Of a stretch of 64,000 nucleotides of DNA, positions 34,873-46,869 are shown one piece after another. Every line of letters starts with the position of its first letter. Position 1 is the first letter of the stretch. Source of the stretch: an uncultured Oscillospiraceae bacterium (GTDB taxonomy: Bacteria; Bacillota; Clostridia; Oscillospirales; Oscillospiraceae); NCBI GenBank assembly GCA_949494735.1, contig CATABD010000001.1:41533-105532 (forward strand), in the 5' to 3' direction. The notes below the pieces were generated by a model. The model made no database searches. It had not been told where the DNA came from and was given only the letters and a program-made list of their open reading frames with translations. The position numbers and the translations under genes are program-made.

Positions 34873-36477
34873 TTATTCCGCCGCCTCGGCGGAACCACGG
34901 CTGGACTTGCGCTCCATCTTGGGCAGCTCAAAGAGGTAATTGCCCTGGGCATCCAGCTTGGGCTGGGGGAAGTGGCAGGCCAGGAAGTGGCCCGGCTCAA
35001 TCTCTTGCAGAGGGGGCGGCACCCGCTTGCACTTGTCGCAGGCCATATAACAACGGGTATGGAACTTGCAGCCGGAGGGTGGCCTGATGGGGCTGGGGAT
35101 ATTGCCCTCCAGCAGAATGCGCTCCTTCTCCAGGCTCTCCGGGTCGGTGGTGGGGATGGAGGAGAGCAGCGCCACCGTGTAGGGGTGTCTGGGATCCTTG
35201 AAGATGGTCTCGGCATCGGCCAGCTCTACAATGTTGCCCAGGTACATCACGCAGATCCGATCGGAGATATAACGCACCACCGACAGGTCATGGGAGATGA
35301 ACATATAGGTCAGGTTCTGCTTCTCCTTCAGCTCCTGGAGCAGGTTGATGATCTGGGACTGGATGGACACGTCCAGCGCGGAGACACACTCATCGCACAC
35401 GATGAACTTGGGCTTCACCACCAGCGCCCGGGCGATGGCCACGCGCTGGCGCTGGCCGCCGGAAAACTGGTGGGGATAGCGGTTGACCATATAGTCCTGG
35501 AGGCCGCACTCGTCCATGGTGGACAGGATATGCTCCTCCATCTGCTTGGAGCCCTTGCGGTAGAAATTATGGGTGAGCAGGCCCTCCTCAATGATCTGGC
35601 CGATGGTCATCCGGGGGTTTAGGCTGGAATAGGGGTCCTGGAAGATGATCTGCAAATCCTTGCGCAGCAGGCGCATCTCGCTGTACTGCAGGCGGGCCAG
35701 GTCAATGCCGCTGTCCCGCATGGCCTCGTATTTGGCAAACTCCGGGTTAGCCGCGTTCCGGGCGCGCAGGTCGTCCAGCTCCCTCTGGCAGGCGGCGGTG
35801 CTTCGGTCATAGACGGCGATCTGGCTGTCCAGCTCGTCCAGCTTGGCCTTCAGCCCGGCGGCTTTTCCGCTGTCTCCCTTGCCCACACTCAGCTCGTACT
35901 CCGCGTTGATATCCGTCCGCTTTTCCAGCAGCTTGTTGCGCTTCACATTCTCATAGTAGACCTTTTCCATCAGCTCCCGGCCCTTGCCGCCCTCGTCCTT
36001 GGCGAAAAAGCCGCCCAGGATGGTGACGATGTGCATCAGGCAGGTCTGCTCGTCGCACAGCGCCAGGTTGCGCTCCTGGAGCAGGTAGAAGTCCGCGTTC
36101 TCCTCACCGCCCGCGTCCATCACCTTTTTGCTTAGCTCGGCGGCCTTCTCACTGGCCTTTTCCAGCCTGGCCTTGTAGCGGTCCAGGTGGTGCAGGGTGT
36201 CGATCACGTACTTGGGGGTGGTGGAGTCCAGGGTGGCGCCGTAGTACATGGTGGTGCCGGCGGTCTGGGGGTAGAGCTGGAGGAGCACGCGGCCCAGGGT
36301 GGACTTGCCGCAGCCGCTCTCGCCCACCACGCCCACGGTCTCGCCCTCGTAGATGTCAATGGAGATATCCTCGTTGGCCCGGACGTACAGCTGCTCCTTC
36401 TGGAAGATGGAACTCTTAGCCACGGGGAAATATTTTTTCAGATTACTGATGGACAGTAATTTTTTGGTGCTCTTCAC
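34873..36477 (-). CDS. oppF: Oligopeptide ABC transporter ATP-binding protein (OppF type) with coiled-coil insertion
   Basis: VGESGCGKSTLGRVLLQLYP, then ~170 aa insertion, then LLRKDLQIIFQDPYSSLNPRMTIGQIIEEGL, FSGGQRQRVAIARALVVKPKFIVCDECVSALDVSIQSQIINLL. Confidence 0.93.
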   Translation of the reverse strand: MKSTKKLLSISNLKKYFPVAKSSIFQKEQLYVRANEDISIDIYEGETVGVVGESGCGKSTLGRVLLQLYPQTAGTTMYYGATLDSTTPKYVIDTLHHLDRYKARLEKASEKAAELSKKVMDAGGEENADFYLLQERNLALCDEQTCLMHIVTILGGFFAKDEGGKGRELMEKVYYENVKRNKLLEKRTDINAEYELSVGKGDSGKAAGLKAKLDELDSQIAVYDRSTAACQRELDDLRARNAANPEFAKYEAMRDSGIDLARLQYSEMRLLRKDLQIIFQDPYSSLNPRMTIGQIIEEGLLTHNFYRKGSKQMEEHILSTMDECGLQDYMVNRYPHQFSGGQRQRVAIARALVVKPKFIVCDECVSALDVSIQSQIINLLQELKEKQNLTYMFISHDLSVVRYISDRICVMYLGNIVELADAETIFKDPRHPYTVALLSSIPTTDPESLEKERILLEGNIPSPIRPPSGCKFHTRCYMACDKCKRVPPPLQEIEPGHFLACHFPQPKLDAQGNYLFELPKMERKSSRGSAEAAE

Positions 36478-37462
36478 TGCGCCTCACCTCCTTTTCGGGA
36501 TAGAAGCAGCGGATGAGCTGGCCTCCGCCCACATCTTCCAGGCCTGGCTCCTCCTCAATACACTTCTGCGTGCAGTATTTGCACCGCGGGGCGAACTTAC
36601 ACCCCTTGGGCAGATCCAGCGGGTGGGGCACAGCCCCGGGGATGGGCTCGATCCGGGTGTGGATGGCATCCAGCCGGGGGATGGAGAACATCAGCCCCTC
36701 GGTGTAGGGGTGGCTCATGGCGCAGTCGGCAAAGATAAGCCGGGCGCTGGCCTTTTCCACCACCTGCCCACAGTACATAACGGCCACATCGTCCGCCATC
36801 TCGTTGATGACGCCCAGGTCATGTGTGATAAAGATGATGGAGGTGCCGTTCTCCTCCTGGAGCTCATTCATCAGGCGGAGGATCTGGGCCTGGATGGTCA
36901 CGTCCAGGGCGGTGGTGGGCTCGTCGGCAATGAGGATCTTGGGCCGGCAGGCCAGAGCCATGGCGATCATCACCCGCTGGCGCATTCCGCCGGACAGCTG
37001 GTGGGGGTACTGGTTGAGCACCGCCTCGGGGTTGGGGATCTGCACCGCGCGGAGCATCTCCAGGCTCTTTTCCGCCGCCTGCTTCTTGTTCATGCCCTGG
37101 TGGATCATAAAGGGCTCGGACAGCTGGCGCTTGACGGTGAACACCGGGTTCAGGCTGGTCATGGGCTCCTGGAAGATGACGGAAATGGCGTTGCCCCGGA
37201 TGTGGTACATATCGTCCATGGGCAGCTTGGTCAGGTCCCTGCCCTCAAAGAGGATCTCCCCCGAGTCGATATAGCCGTTGGCGTCCAGCAGGCGCAGGAT
37301 GCTCATGGCGGACACGGACTTGCCCGAGCCGGACTCGCCCACAATGCCGATGGTCTTGCCCGGCTCCAGGCTGTAGGACACGTCGTTCACTGCCTTGACG
37401 GTGCCGTTCCTGGTCCTGAAATAGGTGTGGAGGTTCTTGACCTCAAGGAGCATATCCGCCAT
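36443..37462 (-). CDS. oppD: Oligopeptide ABC transporter ATP-binding protein (OppD type)
   Basis: GIVGESGSGKSVSAMSILRLL, LSGGMRQRVMIAMALACRPKILIADEPTTALDVTIQAQILRLM, C-terminal oligo_HPY Cys cluster. Confidence 0.94.
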   Translation of the reverse strand: MADMLLEVKNLHTYFRTRNGTVKAVNDVSYSLEPGKTIGIVGESGSGKSVSAMSILRLLDANGYIDSGEILFEGRDLTKLPMDDMYHIRGNAISVIFQEPMTSLNPVFTVKRQLSEPFMIHQGMNKKQAAEKSLEMLRAVQIPNPEAVLNQYPHQLSGGMRQRVMIAMALACRPKILIADEPTTALDVTIQAQILRLMNELQEENGTSIIFITHDLGVINEMADDVAVMYCGQVVEKASARLIFADCAMSHPYTEGLMFSIPRLDAIHTRIEPIPGAVPHPLDLPKGCKFAPRCKYCTQKCIEEEPGLEDVGGGQLIRCFYPEKEVRRSEEHQKITVHQ

Positions 37463-39405
37463 TATTTCTCCACCTCCGATTTCGGGTCAAGTACATCGCG
37501 CAGGGTGTCGCCGATGGTGTTGATGCAGATGACGACGATGGACAGGAACAGGGCCGGGAACAGCCAGCGCCACCAATAGGACTCGATGACCAGCGCGCTG
37601 CGGGAGCCGTTGAGCATATTGCCCCAGGTGGGCCGGGGCAGCTGCACGCCGAAGCCCAGGTAGGACAGCTGGGACTCGGTGAGCATGCAGGTGGCGAAAT
37701 CCAGGGTGACCGTCACCAAAATGACGGACACAATGTTGGGCAGGATGTGCCAGAAGGCGATGCGCCCCTCCTTTACGCCCATGGACCGGGCGGCGGTGAC
37801 GAATTCCTTCTCGCGCTCGGCCAGGATCTGGCCGCGGACCAGCCGCGCCAGCCCCGCCCAGCTCAAGACGCCCAGAATAATCATGATGATGAAGATCCGG
37901 GTGTCCTCATGGATGTCGGTGGACTGGAAGATGGCCGACAGGCACAAAGCGAAGGGCAGGAAGGGGATGGCGCCCACGATCTCGCACAGGCGCATGAGCA
38001 GCATATCCACGATGCCGCCGAAATAGCCGGAGATGCAGCCCACAATGACGCCGATGACGGTGGAGATGATGACGGCCACCGCGCCGATGGTCATGGTCAT
38101 CTTGCCGCCGTTTACAATGCGGTTGAACACGTCGCGGCCCATCTCATCGGTGCCCATGATATAGCCCTTCAGCCCCCAGCTGTCCACGAATTTCCCGTCC
38201 TTGAAGGCGTAGTTCTGGAAGCCGCTGGTGATGACGGTGTCCGCCGCCCCCTCCTGCTTCAGGCTGTCGGGTACATTGCACTGGTTGCGGTAGTTCTGGC
38301 CCCAGGCGTATACCCGCCCCTTGTCGGTGAGTAGGGAGAAGTGCCGGGTGCCGCCGCTGACGGCGATGGCGTCCTCATCGTCCATGAGCTGGGGCATGGG
38401 GTCCTTCATGCCGGACATGATAATCTCGCCGTCGTCGGTGACCAGGGCCAGGGCGCCGCCGGTGGCGGCAATGTCCACCAGCTTGCGCTCCCCCAGGTAC
38501 TCAAACAGGTCCATGGTCACGTTTTTGCCGTTCTCGTCCTGGACGGTGACGATATTGTACTTGGTGCTCTTGCCGTAGACGAAATCGCCGAACTCATCGA
38601 TGCCGTAGATGCCGTCGTTAGTAAACACGATCTTCTCCAGCTTGCCCACCTGCTTGCCGTGCTTGATGACGGAGGACAGGTTGGTGGCGGCCAGGCCGTC
38701 GTTGCCCCAGGCGTAGACGGTGCCGTCCTCCATGAGGATGGCGGTGACCTGGTTGCCGCAGATGAGCTGGCGCACGGCGGAGGCGTCGATGGTGTTATCC
38801 CCCATCAGCTCCTCCGGCTGTTTGCGGGCGGACATAATCATGGAGCCGTCATGGCCGTACTGGCCGTTGTCCATCTCGCCCCAGCAGTACACGTGGCCGT
38901 CCTCCGAGATGGCCACGCAATGGTCGGAGCCGGCGGCCACATGGATAATTTTGCTGTTCTTCACCGCCTCGGGGATGTTCATCACGTCCCGGGCGGGGTC
39001 GCCGGAGGTATTGAAATAGTACCCCCACATGGATACCTGTCCCTCGGTGTCCACGCCGATGGTGAAGGTGCCCCGGGAGGAAATGTCCAGCGCGCCGTCC
39101 TTCATGCCCTCGGGCAGCTTCATCAGGCTCTGGGTGGGGGCCATGTTGGTGTGCAGCATCTCGCTGCCCGTCTCGGTCAGGTCCACCGGCGCGATGGCCG
39201 AGCCGATGAACACGAACAGGAACATCCCCACCAGCACGATCACCGAGCCGGTGGCCAGCGGCTTGCGGAAAAACCGCTTCACCGCCTGCTTGGAGGGGCT
39301 GTCGTAGCGGTCGTCCTTCACCTCGCCGTAGGAACCCATAAACATGCGCTTCATCCAGCGCAGGGGGGTGCCCCCCTTCTTCGCGGAACCATTCTTTTCA
39401 CTCAT
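37462..39405 (-). CDS. oppC: Oligopeptide ABC transporter permease (OppC type) with inserted RCC1-like domain
   Basis: N-terminal TM (SVIVLVGMFLFVFIGSAIA), RCC1-like repeats (HVAAGSDHCVAISEDGHVYCWGEMDNGQYG; AILMEDGTVYAWGND; GGTRHFSLLTDKGRVYAWGQNYRNQ), then IMGTDEMGRDVFNRIVNGGKMTMTIGAVAVIISTVIGVIVGCISGYFGG and BPD_transp_1. Confidence 0.93.
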   Translation of the reverse strand: MSEKNGSAKKGGTPLRWMKRMFMGSYGEVKDDRYDSPSKQAVKRFFRKPLATGSVIVLVGMFLFVFIGSAIAPVDLTETGSEMLHTNMAPTQSLMKLPEGMKDGALDISSRGTFTIGVDTEGQVSMWGYYFNTSGDPARDVMNIPEAVKNSKIIHVAAGSDHCVAISEDGHVYCWGEMDNGQYGHDGSMIMSARKQPEELMGDNTIDASAVRQLICGNQVTAILMEDGTVYAWGNDGLAATNLSSVIKHGKQVGKLEKIVFTNDGIYGIDEFGDFVYGKSTKYNIVTVQDENGKNVTMDLFEYLGERKLVDIAATGGALALVTDDGEIIMSGMKDPMPQLMDDEDAIAVSGGTRHFSLLTDKGRVYAWGQNYRNQCNVPDSLKQEGAADTVITSGFQNYAFKDGKFVDSWGLKGYIMGTDEMGRDVFNRIVNGGKMTMTIGAVAVIISTVIGVIVGCISGYFGGIVDMLLMRLCEIVGAIPFLPFALCLSAIFQSTDIHEDTRIFIIMIILGVLSWAGLARLVRGQILAEREKEFVTAARSMGVKEGRIAFWHILPNIVSVILVTVTLDFATCMLTESQLSYLGFGVQLPRPTWGNMLNGSRSALVIESYWWRWLFPALFLSIVVICINTIGDTLRDVLDPKSEVEK

Positions 39406-40562: not shown

Positions 40563-42707
40563 TTAGAAGCCCTTCACGTTGGCGTAAAGGATGGCGCGGT
40601 GCTGGCCGAAGAACGGAGAGGTGTGGAAGTTCTCGATCTTGGCGTTGTACACGTCATAGTAGTAGTTGGAGTACAGGGGGATGTCGGGCATGAGCTCGTT
40701 CCAGCGCTCAATATAGCCCATCCACCAGTGGTTGTACTCGTCCTCGGTGGTGGCGTTGAAGATCATGGCCATGGACAGGTAGTCCATACCCAGCTTGTCG
40801 CCGGAAGCCTCCACGGCCTCCTCATAGGTCAGCTTCTCCGCCTTCAGGTCATAGGGGAACGCCTTGTCGTACTCATCAAACACCTTGTTGGCGGAGTAGG
40901 GGAAGTACATGGGATCCAGGGACCAGTTGTAGGAGTAGTCATACACGGCGCTGGGCCAGCCGGTGGCCAGGTTGTACATGCCGTAGGTGGGAGTGCCCTC
41001 GTAGCCGTAGGACGCCTCGCGGTAGATGTTGCCCTGGAGCAGGGTGAAGTCGCCGCGGGTGGAGCGGATGACCATGCCCGCCTCGGTCACCTGGCTGCCG
41101 TTGGCCAGGGAGGTGGTCAGCATGTCGGTGACGGTGTTCTCGTCGGTGCCGAACCAGTTGATGGCCAGGGGCATATAGTACTCGCCGTTGATCTCCACGG
41201 TCTTGTAGGTCACGCCGTCGGTGTTGGCCACGGAGGCGTAGTTCTTGTTGATGTCGGCGGTGCCGTCGCCGGAGGCGGCGTTGGCCTCCTCGGCGGTGAG
41301 CTTCTTGTAGCGCACAGCGTCCACGCCGGTCTGGCCGGGCTCATAGGGCTCGCCCTTGGAGTTATAGATCCAGCCGCCCTCCTCCAGCACCTTCACGGCG
41401 GTGTCGGGGGAGTAGGAGTAGTCGGTCAGCTCGATCTCGTCCTGCACGCCCTGCCACATGGAGAAATCGGGGCTGTAGGGGCCGTCCACCACCACGCCGT
41501 AGCCGCCGGTGAAGGTCTGGCAGAACTCGTTGCGGTTGAGCAGGTAGGCCACGGCCTGGCGGACTTCCTTAAACATGGTGGGGCCAAAGTCGCAGTCGAA
41601 CTGGATCTTGCCGTAGCCGGCCCGCTGGTAGTGGGTCTCCACGAATTTCTCGCCGTCCACCACGGCCAGGGCGGCCTTGGTGTCGTCGCCGCCGGTGATG
41701 CTGGACAGGACGTCCATCTCGCCGCCGGTCAGCTGGGCAATCTGGGTCTCGGAGATGATGCGGCCGTAGACAACGGTCTCAATGGAGGGCTTCTGGCCCT
41801 CGAAGTTGCCCTTAAACTCGGGGTTGATGGTCAAGACCGCCTGACTGGTGCCCTCGTCCCACTCGGAGACCACATAGGCGCCGCTGTAGGGGATGTCCAG
41901 GTTGTAGCGGTTGCCCAGAATCTCGGCGGCCTTGACGTAGTCGTCGCCGTTCTTCTCATAGTAGTTGTCGGTGAGGTAGCAGCCGTTGCCGTCGTCCATG
42001 ATATCCACGTCCTTGCCCAGCCACTGCTCCATGACGTAGGGCTGCACAGCGGCGTTGGTGTAGGCAAAGTAAGAGGGATAGTACTCGCTGGACACGGTCA
42101 GGGAGAAGGTGTAGTCGTCCAGCAGGCGCACACCGGAGAACTCCTTGGTGCCGGTCTCGGAGCCGGGGCCGGTGTAGGCGTTGAAGTCCTCAAAGCCCAC
42201 CAGGGCCTGGCCATTCATGCCGGAGTGGTTGGTGCCCTGGGCCACGGGGGTGGAGAAGCTCAGAACGTAGGCCAGGTAGTTCTTGGCGGTGACGGGGCTG
42301 CCGTCGCTGAACTTCAGGTCGTCATAAATCTCAATGGTGTAGGTGCAGGTGCTGTCGTCGTTCTCGGTCTCCTCATGGCTTTTGACCACGGTCTGGCTCC
42401 ACTGGTAGGCGCCGCCCTGGTCGGACTCCATGGTGGACAGGCCGCTGGTCAGGAACCAGACTCCCTGGTCGGACGCGCCCACGGAGCTGGAGCCCCAGCC
42501 GGGATAACGGAAATCGCCGGACAGCTCGGTGACGTCGCCCAGGATCACCTTGTTCTCAAAGACCTCCTGAGACCCAGATGGAGCCTCCGAGGGGGCCGTG
42601 CTGTTGTCGGCGGGGGGATTGCTCTCGCCGGTTTCCTTGGGACCGCAGCCGGCCAGAAGGCCAAGACACATCACGGCCGCCAGCAGAAGCGCAAGAAACT
42701 TCTTCAT
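40563..42707 (-). CDS. oppA: Oligopeptide ABC transporter substrate-binding lipoprotein (SBP_bac_5)
   Basis: MKKFLALLLAAVMCLGLLAGCGPK; KFSDGSPVTAKNYLAYVLSF; QFDCDFGPTMFKEVRQAVAYLLNRNEF. Confidence 0.9.
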   Translation of the reverse strand: MKKFLALLLAAVMCLGLLAGCGPKETGESNPPADNSTAPSEAPSGSQEVFENKVILGDVTELSGDFRYPGWGSSSVGASDQGVWFLTSGLSTMESDQGGAYQWSQTVVKSHEETENDDSTCTYTIEIYDDLKFSDGSPVTAKNYLAYVLSFSTPVAQGTNHSGMNGQALVGFEDFNAYTGPGSETGTKEFSGVRLLDDYTFSLTVSSEYYPSYFAYTNAAVQPYVMEQWLGKDVDIMDDGNGCYLTDNYYEKNGDDYVKAAEILGNRYNLDIPYSGAYVVSEWDEGTSQAVLTINPEFKGNFEGQKPSIETVVYGRIISETQIAQLTGGEMDVLSSITGGDDTKAALAVVDGEKFVETHYQRAGYGKIQFDCDFGPTMFKEVRQAVAYLLNRNEFCQTFTGGYGVVVDGPYSPDFSMWQGVQDEIELTDYSYSPDTAVKVLEEGGWIYNSKGEPYEPGQTGVDAVRYKKLTAEEANAASGDGTADINKNYASVANTDGVTYKTVEINGEYYMPLAINWFGTDENTVTDMLTTSLANGSQVTEAGMVIRSTRGDFTLLQGNIYREASYGYEGTPTYGMYNLATGWPSAVYDYSYNWSLDPMYFPYSANKVFDEYDKAFPYDLKAEKLTYEEAVEASGDKLGMDYLSMAMIFNATTEDEYNHWWMGYIERWNELMPDIPLYSNYYYDVYNAKIENFHTSPFFGQHRAILYANVKGF

Positions 42708-43341: not shown

Positions 43342-46300
43342 TCAATAGGAGGCGTCCAGCTCCCACTCCTCCTTCCCGATCTGGAAGCCGCCGCCGGTGA
43401 AGTCCAGCCTTACCCTGATGTAGCGCAGCTCATGGAGGTCCGCGCCGGTGAGCTCCATGCTCATCCAGCAAAACACGTTTCCGTCCTCGACGCTGTAGCG
43501 GGCGTGTTCCCCCACGCTGACGGCCTCGACCTCCCCCTTCCTGATCACCATCGGCCCATACGTGCCCGGGCCCTCCAGATAGAACCGGGTCCCCTCCTCG
43601 GTGCATTTGAACTGGCCCGCCACGCCCTCCCTGAGCCCGGACAGGTCGTACTCCTCCAGCGTCTGGGCGTCGAAGGCATGCAGCTCCTGGGCGGGCTCCC
43701 CGGCAAAGCTCAGGTAGTCGAATACGCACACGATCTCGTCCCTGCCGTCGCCGTTCAGGTCCAGCACCTTCACATAGGGCTGGTCCTGGGAGCGCCAATT
43801 GGCGAAAAAGTCCGCCGTCCGGTCCTGGTAGCGCAGCCGCGCCGACCGCAGGCAGCCGCTCCCCGCCTCCCCCATGTCCATTATCTCCGGCTCGACGGCG
43901 TACCACCGCGCCTCCATGGCCGTCTGGTAATCTTTCAGGTTTTCCAGCAGGGATTTGCCCGGGTCGCGGGTGAAGCCCTCCTCGGGGAAGGCGTCCAGCC
44001 ACCACAGGCTGTCGTACAGCCGCCCCTCCTTTTCAAAGGCGCCCAGCAGATCCTGGTCGGTGTTGAGCAGCTGGACGCTGTTTTCCAGCAGGCTGTTCAC
44101 CTTCTCCATGAAGTCGGCGATGGCCTCCGGGTCAAAGTTCTGGTGGAGCATGGGCTGGAAGTTTATGTCGAACTCCACCCGGCCCTCCCGTACCGTCATC
44201 TCCTCCCCGGCGCGGGACAGGGTGAACAGCTCAAAGGTATAGGAGCACACGCCCTGGTACATGGTGGGGTGGTAGCGCAGCAGGCAGTCCTCCCCGTCCA
44301 CCGTGCACAGAAACAGGGCGTTCCAGCCCGCGTGGGCGTAGTAGCCCTCCTCGGAGAAGAGCAGCTTCTCCCCCTCCCAGATCTCCACCCGGCGGCCCAC
44401 CGGCGTGCCGCCCGCCACGATGTCGCACATCTGGACCCGCTCGGCCACGCCGTCCCCGTCCAAGTTGGTGGCACGGGCCTCGCCGTTGGCGTGGTAAAGG
44501 CCTTCCGCGTTTTCATAGCGCTCGACGGAACTCAGCCCCGCCCCTTGCAGGGCGTCCAGCAGGTCGTTGCGGAAGCCCACCGACCCGAACTCGGCCTGGG
44601 TCAGAAAGCGCGTCATCGTTCTGTCCTCTTCGCCGGTGACAGCCACGTAGTTGAAGCCGTTTGTAAAGTTCATCCAGCCCTCGTCGTCCAGGGTCATGCC
44701 GCCGGCCAGCAGGTTTTGGGCAAACTCCGGCACGGTGGTGTGGTACTCGAAGGCCACCTTCCACAGCTCCGCCACCACGTCCTCCCCATCGGCCTGCACT
44801 GTGTAAAGGAAGGGGCCTTCCATGCTCTTGATACGCACCCGGTCGAAGGGCACCGCCTTGGCCAGCAGGACCGGCTCCCACGCCCCTGTCTCATCGTTGT
44901 AGCTCTCGCCCCAGCTGGTGAGCACGCCCCCCGGCACGTCGGCCTGGAACTGGGCGGCCACATAGGCCTTGGCGGCGTTCAGCACGTCCGCCGGGACGGC
45001 GAAGCTGGAAACCGGGTTGTTTCCCGTGTACTGGAAGGCGATTTCCACCACCGGGGTCTTGTGGTTGTTATACCACTCCTCCGCCGCGGTCAGCAGCCGG
45101 GCGGCGATGCGGGCCGCGCGGATGGCCTCCTCGTCGGAGATCGTCTCGGGATAGAGCTGTAACGGGGTGTCCAAGCTGGCACGAGAGGACATGCCTTCCA
45201 CGGGAACCATCTCCGTGACCTGCGCGCCGTGTATTCCGTACAGCTCCACAGTAAATATCCAAAAGATCTCAGGAGGGCCGCTGAACCGCGCGTCCACTCT
45301 GGTGCGCAGGTCCACCGTCCCGCTGTCCGCCCAGTACGCCTCCATGATAACGCCCTCGGGCGCGCCCTCAAAGGGATAGGACATCGTAAGGGTTTTGGCG
45401 GGGGCGCCTGACGGCTGCCAATAGGTCCCCTCTCTCAGCGTCAGGCCGTCCACCTCGCCCTCAATGACCACAAGATCGTTCTCATCCAGGGAAAAGCGCA
45501 GATCGTCCGTCCGGCGGGAGAACCGCTCCCCGTCCTTCACGTCCACGTACATGAATTTCGCGGACTTCTCCGCCTGGAAGACCAAATTGCCGTCCTCAAC
45601 CGTGAAATAGTAACGCTGTATTCCGGCGCTGCCCTCCAGCCCCTCGTCGGCCAGGCAGACCACGCCGTCCTCCTGGGTCCAGGTCCCCATGCCGATGTAG
45701 CTGCTCAAAAGTCCGGCGTAGTAGGAAAACGTGCCGTCCTGGTTCAGGGTCACCGCGAAGTCCCCGCCGAAGCCGCCCGCGTCCCGGATATACGTCATCC
45801 GGCTCACGCCGTAGGGCCAAAGCAGCGCGTCCACCTCTTCCTCCGGCTCGGCCTGTCCGAAGGCGCACGCGCAGGCCAGCGCCGTGGCCAGCACCACGGC
45901 CACCGCCGCCCACAGCCACCGCCTGGGGGCCTGGGCGATGCGGGTGATGCGCTCCTTCAGGCTCCTCTTGTCCCCCGCCATGGTGGTGGTGCACCGGAAC
46001 AGGTCGCCCGGGCCGGGCTTGGCGGTGACCAAGGCCAACAGGGTGTTCCCGTAGGCGGCCCGTTCGCCGTCGCCCAGCCGCCGGAGCGCCCCCTCGTCGC
46101 AGGCCAGCTCGCCGTCCCTCCGGCTCAGCCCCACCGCCAGCCACACCAGCGGGTTCCACCAGTGGACGGCCAGGGCGGCGCACCGCAGGAGGCTCCAGAT
46201 GTGGTCGCCCTGGCGGAAGTGGGTGTACTCGTGGGCCAGCACATGGCGCAGCATGTCCGGGTCCGCCGCCGTCTCGGGGGCGACGTACACCGCCGGGCGG

Positions 46301-46869
46301 ACAATGCCGAACAGGCACGGGGAGGGCAGTCCCCCTGCCTCATACACCGCCAGCGGGCAGTCCGCCCCCTCCAGCGGGACGCGCCCCTTCCGCAGCCGCG
46401 CATAAAACCGCAGGTTGGACGCCAACAGCACCAGCGCCGCCAGCCCGGTCCCCGCCAGCCACGCCCGGCCCAGCCAGGGGGCCAGTGCGCTCAAATCAGG
46501 GGCGGCTGGGGGCTCCGGCGCATCCGGCGCCGCAGGAGAGCCGGGGAGGGTTGGCACACTTCCCGGCTTCACGTCCGTCACAGGCAGGCCGGTTATCCCC
46601 GCCGCCGGGGGCTCAGGCAGACTGGGGGCGGTCATCGCCGGGGGCGGAGCAACCGCGTTCCATTCGGTGCGCGCCTCCGTCAGCGCCCACGTCCCGGCGA
46701 TGGGGGATTCAAACAGCTGCACCGGCACCAGCAGCCGCAGCAGCACCACCGCCCACAGGGCGTAGCGCATACGGGCGCTGATGCGCCTGCCCAGCGCGGC
46801 GCGCAGGGCCAATACCACTAAAATAAGGAATACGGAGGTAAAAACCCACTCCAGCAGCGTCCGCGTCAT
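43342..46869 (-). CDS. BlaR1-type M56 family membrane metallopeptidase with very long C-terminal extracellular region
   Basis: N-terminal TMs, zinc motif VLAHEYTHFRQGDHIWSLLRCAALAVHWWNPLVWLA, then TM near residue 320-335 and ~840 aa extracellular. Confidence 0.9.
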   Translation of the reverse strand: MTRTLLEWVFTSVFLILVVLALRAALGRRISARMRYALWAVVLLRLLVPVQLFESPIAGTWALTEARTEWNAVAPPPAMTAPSLPEPPAAGITGLPVTDVKPGSVPTLPGSPAAPDAPEPPAAPDLSALAPWLGRAWLAGTGLAALVLLASNLRFYARLRKGRVPLEGADCPLAVYEAGGLPSPCLFGIVRPAVYVAPETAADPDMLRHVLAHEYTHFRQGDHIWSLLRCAALAVHWWNPLVWLAVGLSRRDGELACDEGALRRLGDGERAAYGNTLLALVTAKPGPGDLFRCTTTMAGDKRSLKERITRIAQAPRRWLWAAVAVVLATALACACAFGQAEPEEEVDALLWPYGVSRMTYIRDAGGFGGDFAVTLNQDGTFSYYAGLLSSYIGMGTWTQEDGVVCLADEGLEGSAGIQRYYFTVEDGNLVFQAEKSAKFMYVDVKDGERFSRRTDDLRFSLDENDLVVIEGEVDGLTLREGTYWQPSGAPAKTLTMSYPFEGAPEGVIMEAYWADSGTVDLRTRVDARFSGPPEIFWIFTVELYGIHGAQVTEMVPVEGMSSRASLDTPLQLYPETISDEEAIRAARIAARLLTAAEEWYNNHKTPVVEIAFQYTGNNPVSSFAVPADVLNAAKAYVAAQFQADVPGGVLTSWGESYNDETGAWEPVLLAKAVPFDRVRIKSMEGPFLYTVQADGEDVVAELWKVAFEYHTTVPEFAQNLLAGGMTLDDEGWMNFTNGFNYVAVTGEEDRTMTRFLTQAEFGSVGFRNDLLDALQGAGLSSVERYENAEGLYHANGEARATNLDGDGVAERVQMCDIVAGGTPVGRRVEIWEGEKLLFSEEGYYAHAGWNALFLCTVDGEDCLLRYHPTMYQGVCSYTFELFTLSRAGEEMTVREGRVEFDINFQPMLHQNFDPEAIADFMEKVNSLLENSVQLLNTDQDLLGAFEKEGRLYDSLWWLDAFPEEGFTRDPGKSLLENLKDYQTAMEARWYAVEPEIMDMGEAGSGCLRSARLRYQDRTADFFANWRSQDQPYVKVLDLNGDGRDEIVCVFDYLSFAGEPAQELHAFDAQTLEEYDLSGLREGVAGQFKCTEEGTRFYLEGPGTYGPMVIRKGEVEAVSVGEHARYSVEDGNVFCWMSMELTGADLHELRYIRVRLDFTGGGFQIGKEEWELDASY

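Follow-up and report, generated by a model that had tools for sequence, protein, structure and literature searches.

A seven-bladed RCC1 propeller within the OppC permease of an OppABCDF importer from Clostridia-related genomes

In the window (the whole stretch of 64,000 nucleotides analysed), a single uninterrupted frame on the minus strand encodes a 647-aa OppC permease with an RCC1 beta-propeller inserted between its first two transmembrane helices (Table 1). This propeller-bearing OppC is confirmed as a real, little-known variant of a familiar transporter. According to profile searches and a permease tree, it most likely represents an ancient conserved subfamily of Clostridia-related genomes, in which the insertion happened once. 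An earlier note, made from the sequence alone, had described the insert and inferred that it was novel; no description of the combined RCC1 and OppC architecture was found in the literature searched, the scope of which excluded subscription journals and preprints. The same note missed the ancient subfamily, the other domains carried by sister OppC proteins, and the domain inserted in the OppF ATPase. Gut anaerobes depend centrally on peptide uptake, and their Opp importers belong to a textbook class whose members are held to vary mainly in the binding protein.

Table 1. Position of the importer genes and of the OppC domains in the window
Feature	Coordinates	Strand	Evidence
oppF, ATPase, 534 aa, predicted four-helix insert at ~residues 98-241	34873..36477	-	Pfam, NCBIfam, AF2
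oppD, ATPase, 339 aa	36443..37462	-	Pfam, NCBIfam
oppC-RCC1, 647-aa permease with propeller insert	37462..39405	-	ORF, Pfam, NCBIfam
BPD_transp_1 permease core, OppC residues 413-647	37465..38169	-	Pfam, NCBIfam, AF2
RCC1 propeller, predicted seven-bladed, OppC residues 105-411	38173..39093	-	Pfam, AF2, Foldseek
TM1, OppC residues 49-72	39190..39261	-	AF2, sequence; OppC_N in Pfam
oppB, permease, 366 aa	39420..40520	-	Pfam, NCBIfam
oppA, peptide-binding lipoprotein, 714 aa, lipobox LLAGC, SBP_bac_5	40563..42707	-	Pfam, sequence

Domain layout and fold of the permease

According to Pfam, OppC_N (residues 36-90, 31.8 bits against a cut-off of 23.9), RCC1_2 (90.1 against 22), RCC1 (56.7 against 21.7), and BPD_transp_1 (residues 452-642, 106.8 against 26.4) all exceed their cut-offs in one polypeptide. 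The profile search that the earlier note had proposed as a check of its central claim, an RCC1 propeller inserted into an OppC permease, thus finds both families together, and the 647-aa protein is the sole match of PF00415 in its own genome. The whole-domain model WD40_RLD (PF25390, residues 103-333) stays below its cut-off with 112.5 bits against 150, whereas the single-repeat models pass. As for NCBIfam, models of the OppC type align to the C-terminal region alone, starting at about residue 408-416, and all fall below their cut-offs, including the Opp4C equivalog (NF045476), which has 296.2 bits against a curated cut-off of 350 and aligns to residues 414-642 only. The protein carries the features of an Opp/Dpp OppC, namely the BPD_transp_1 core, its GTDxxGRD start, an EAA loop, and the N-terminal OppC_N domain. 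The core contains the motif GTDEMGRD, TM2-TM6, and the cytoplasmic EAA loop at ~534-545.

In the AlphaFold2 (AF2) model, built with 35 homologues, residues 105-411 form seven repeats with three clear strands each, followed by the permease helices, and ten-residue blocks of the propeller mostly have pLDDT values of 80-92. A Foldseek search with this model reports BLIP-II as the best hit by target-normalised TM-score (TMt 0.75) and UVR8 as the best by E-value, while the permease core matches OppC/DppC with TMt up to 0.67. Relatives in the PDB are distributed likewise: OppC/DppC at residues 411-644, and HERC2, UVR8, RCC1, and BLIP-II in the middle. Taken together, Pfam, AF2, and Foldseek confirm the insert, as modelled, to be a complete seven-bladed RCC1 beta-propeller. 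BLIP-II and UVR8 share this fold and both act by protein-protein contacts; they are, however, stand-alone soluble proteins with ~19% sequence identity to the OppC propeller. The tryptophan motif GWRHT, a feature of the UVR8 photoreceptor (PMC5108777), does not occur in the 647-aa sequence.

The earlier note correctly placed TM1 (53-72) and the GTDEMGRD start (418). Its interval for the insert, 38170-39123 or residues 95-412, is right in location, with the folded propeller being slightly shorter in the AF2 model.

Distribution and origin

Relatives with 33-87% identity are present in 39 other GTDB loci, and nearly all of them span the fused domains. At E <= 1e-90 the full-length profile matches 17 of the 388 class-sample genomes and 14 of the 398 phylum-sample genomes; the window's own genome is counted in both, and genome G161 appears in both match lists. 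Few genomes of the genus to which the window belongs have this type: a strong match occurs in 4 of 42.

A permease-core profile free of the propeller retrieves the same 17/388 class-sample genomes as the propeller profile, after which there is a jump in E-value from 6.7e-97 to 1.5e-81. In a maximum-likelihood tree of the permease core, the 66 sequences of RCC1 type group together as a single clade (support 100/100), with one gain of the propeller and zero losses; nor was any loss within the clade seen in the permease-only search of the class sample. Since the tree has a single gain and the core-only profile returns the same 17 genomes, the insertion is most likely single, ancient, and since retained. 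That an assembly chimera or a frameshift fused an RCC1 gene to oppC, a possibility raised in the earlier note, is practically out of the question, given the recurrence of the fusion among the 39 loci and in 66 sequences of one clade, which come from many assemblies and include two from single-contig genomes (G122 and G139).

The nearest non-RCC1 OppC proteins (L077-L088, L164-L176) have 38-46% core identity, and their TM1-TM2 loop, too, is often enlarged by an insert, of ~130-300 residues. These sister inserts are unrelated in sequence to RCC1, and six examples scanned had no Pfam match within the insert. In the permease-core tree, the sister OppCs included form one group beside the RCC1 clade, and two members have no large insert. 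In the loci examined, the sister operons encode an OppF without the helical insert. The occurrence of unrelated inserts in the same loop makes the OppC TM1-TM2 loop an insertion hotspot. A wider reading, which we put forward tentatively and would not bet on, is that this loop serves as a modular bay in Clostridia-related importers, where unrelated extracytoplasmic domains (the RCC1 propeller in one clade, uncharacterised modules in its sister) are installed as docking or capture devices, and that in the RCC1 clade this device works together with a second accessory domain, the cytoplasmic one in OppF. RCC1-type and sister-type OppC do not overlap in the genus (4/37 and 9/37 genomes); the probability of this by chance, calculated by hand, is ~0.31, and mutual exclusion is not claimed.

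Membrane side of the propeller

The N-terminus ahead of TM1, taken to be cytoplasmic, is basic, and residues 1-53 comprise 13 K+R and 5 D+E. In the Opp/Dpp permease family the EAA loop is cytoplasmic; according to the sequence and the AF2 model, the chain crosses the membrane three times, as TM2-TM4, on its way from the propeller to this loop. By helix parity, the propeller is thus expected to be extracytoplasmic. In agreement with this, the cryo-EM structure of E. coli Dpp has the TM1-TM2 region of DppC in the periplasm (PMC12136057). Blade 7 leads straight into the GTDxxGRD elbow (..WGLKGYIMGTDEMGRD), which would keep the propeller near the permease. A location outside the membrane and close to the permease is therefore inferred with good support, and the outward orientation proposed in the earlier note is upheld against a cytoplasmic one.

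Operon and the OppF insert

Wherever the flanks suffice, RCC1-type loci have the complete OppA-B-C-D-F operon, with the substrate-binding protein, second permease, and two ATPases of an Opp/Dpp importer. The lipobox LLAGC suggests that OppA is probably membrane-anchored. It has 714 aa against 562 aa in the closest solved relative, 9p48, with the surplus spread over at least two regions.

An ordinary OppF has about 320-340 aa. In the window's OppF, ~150 extra residues lie between Walker A and the Q-loop and are predicted by AF2 as four long helices with pLDDT mostly >90. Foldseek matches this model to ABC ATPases and names no structure with such an insert. Nearly every RCC1-type system has this insert: among the 53 OppF proteins of RCC1-type loci, 49 have at least 472 aa, and the rest belong to the Roseburia-like L020, L021, and L027, and to L178 with OppF split over two frames. 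In the three Roseburia-like loci, a ~230-aa protein without a Pfam match follows the insert-less oppF (L020: 10287-10979). As DppC pairs with DppF in E. coli (PMC12136057), both extra domains probably sit, by analogy, on the OppC/OppF half of the transporter.

Comparison with known importers

The solved OppABCDF/DppABCDF type I importers (E. coli 8z21 and 8z1v, M. tuberculosis 8j5q) have the same gene order and subunits, and the core of the window's OppC aligns to them over residues 413-643. In contrast, their OppC/DppC has a short TM1-TM2 loop where the window's OppC has a propeller of ~307 residues, and their OppF is devoid of the helical insert. At the same position many sister OppC proteins of Clostridia have large inserts as well.

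Regarding folded domains outside the membrane, the closest parallel is MalF-P2 (residues 91-271), likewise located inside a permease subunit of a type I importer, the maltose system, where segment 240-249 contacts the binding protein MalE directly (PMC3150292). MalF-P2 is, however, unrelated to the RCC1 propeller and belongs to a different ABC family, and the contact with a binding protein is a feature of MalF-P2 itself. The scoop of DppB, within the equivalent extracytoplasmic TM1-TM2 loop, touches the binding protein DppA (PMC12136057); unlike the OppC propeller, it comprises ~30 residues of the B subunit and is not a folded domain.

Possible roles of the propeller

RCC1 propellers are general binding scaffolds that act through protein-protein contacts; the bacterial RCC1 propeller BLIP-II, for instance, is a tight protein binder. 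Because of these contacts and of the MalF-P2 interaction, we favour a propeller that would dock or retain OppA; by analogy with MalF-P2 and the DppB scoop, docking has the best precedent among the functions put forward in the earlier note, namely ligand capture, docking of the binding protein, or contact with the cell wall. We give roughly an even chance to the reading in which the OppC propeller of an OppABCDF importer works outside the membrane as a platform that docks or retains lipid-anchored OppA, similar to MalF-P2. The propeller, acquired by the OppC of an ancient Clostridia-related subfamily in its TM1-TM2 loop, could hold or orient lipid-anchored OppA above the OppB/OppC entrance, raise the local OppA concentration, and steady the delivery complex; peptides would pass from OppA through OppB/OppC into the cytoplasm, driven by OppD/OppF. 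Most Opp importers work without such a domain.

Conservation and co-divergence do not point specifically to OppA as the propeller's partner. Over 62 sequences, conservation peaks at the permease junction (mean 0.68) and in the linker, for example at P90 and P98, and is lowest in blade 4 and in the blade 2-3 and blade 4-5 loops. Among the conserved propeller residues structural G, W, and P prevail, and no conserved pocket or catalytic residues were seen. A conserved face of the UVR8 type is not apparent either: the turn class of the UVR8 dimer interface scores 0.49 against 0.52 for the opposite turns, so that no binding face is singled out. According to the mirror-tree analysis, propeller distances track those of OppA (partial r 0.36). 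The value is higher, however, for the ATPase part of OppF (0.45), which cannot touch the propeller, and the signal with OppA is thus non-specific.

Two other readings draw on the same conservation pattern, and each is unlikely. The propeller may be a second receptor that feeds the transporter by direct binding of peptides or of some extracellular protein, for example a protease or a surface complex. Its nature as a binding scaffold, its distal rim (blade 4 and the two loops named above), which is the most variable part, as would suit a specificity surface, and the oligopeptidase genes nearby are consistent with this, whereas the lack of a visible pocket and the full OppA present wherever flanks suffice argue against it. 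With a similarly low probability, the propeller could be a regulatory or stabilising lid that gates the outer entrance or buttresses OppB/OppC and has no other partner. The strong conservation at the junction, the linker, and the F-Q-N-Y motif of blade 7 beside the permease would fit such a lid, as would the probable placement of both extra domains on the OppC/OppF half; a seven-bladed protein-binding scaffold, however, is large for this role, and the variable distal side suggests one that faces outward. A role as an anchor in the cell wall or the surface layer is quite improbable: the predicted location of the propeller outside the membrane of Gram-positive-type cells would fit, but the Pfam matches include no cell-wall-binding family, the system spans many families, and the neighbours shared between loci showed no conspicuous cell-wall gene.

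If docking of OppA holds true, a eukaryote-like docking propeller in the permease, together with an insert in its ATPase partner, would change the picture of how OppA delivers its cargo. The subfamily offers a testable case of how importers handle lipid-anchored receptors, and direct binding and deletion tests are possible because the propeller has a clear fold and boundaries.

Neighbouring genes

M3 oligopeptidase genes adjoin 12 RCC1-type and 8 sister-type loci. Loci of the two kinds with such a gene nearby are L101-L110, L010, L013, L021, L024, L027, L029, L030, L181, L182, L191, L192, and L194. Together with the family of OppA (SBP_bac_5), these neighbours support peptides as the probable substrate. 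A short conserved protein without a Pfam match flanks 11 loci (L008, L011, L017, L019, L022, L026, L031, L032, L036, L037, and L039), an example being the 167-aa protein at 3876-4379 of L036. In the window itself, a 1175-aa ORF (43342-46869, minus strand) lies upstream of oppA, and its N-terminal part resembles, by eye, an antirepressor-type metalloprotease of the BlaR1/M56 kind.
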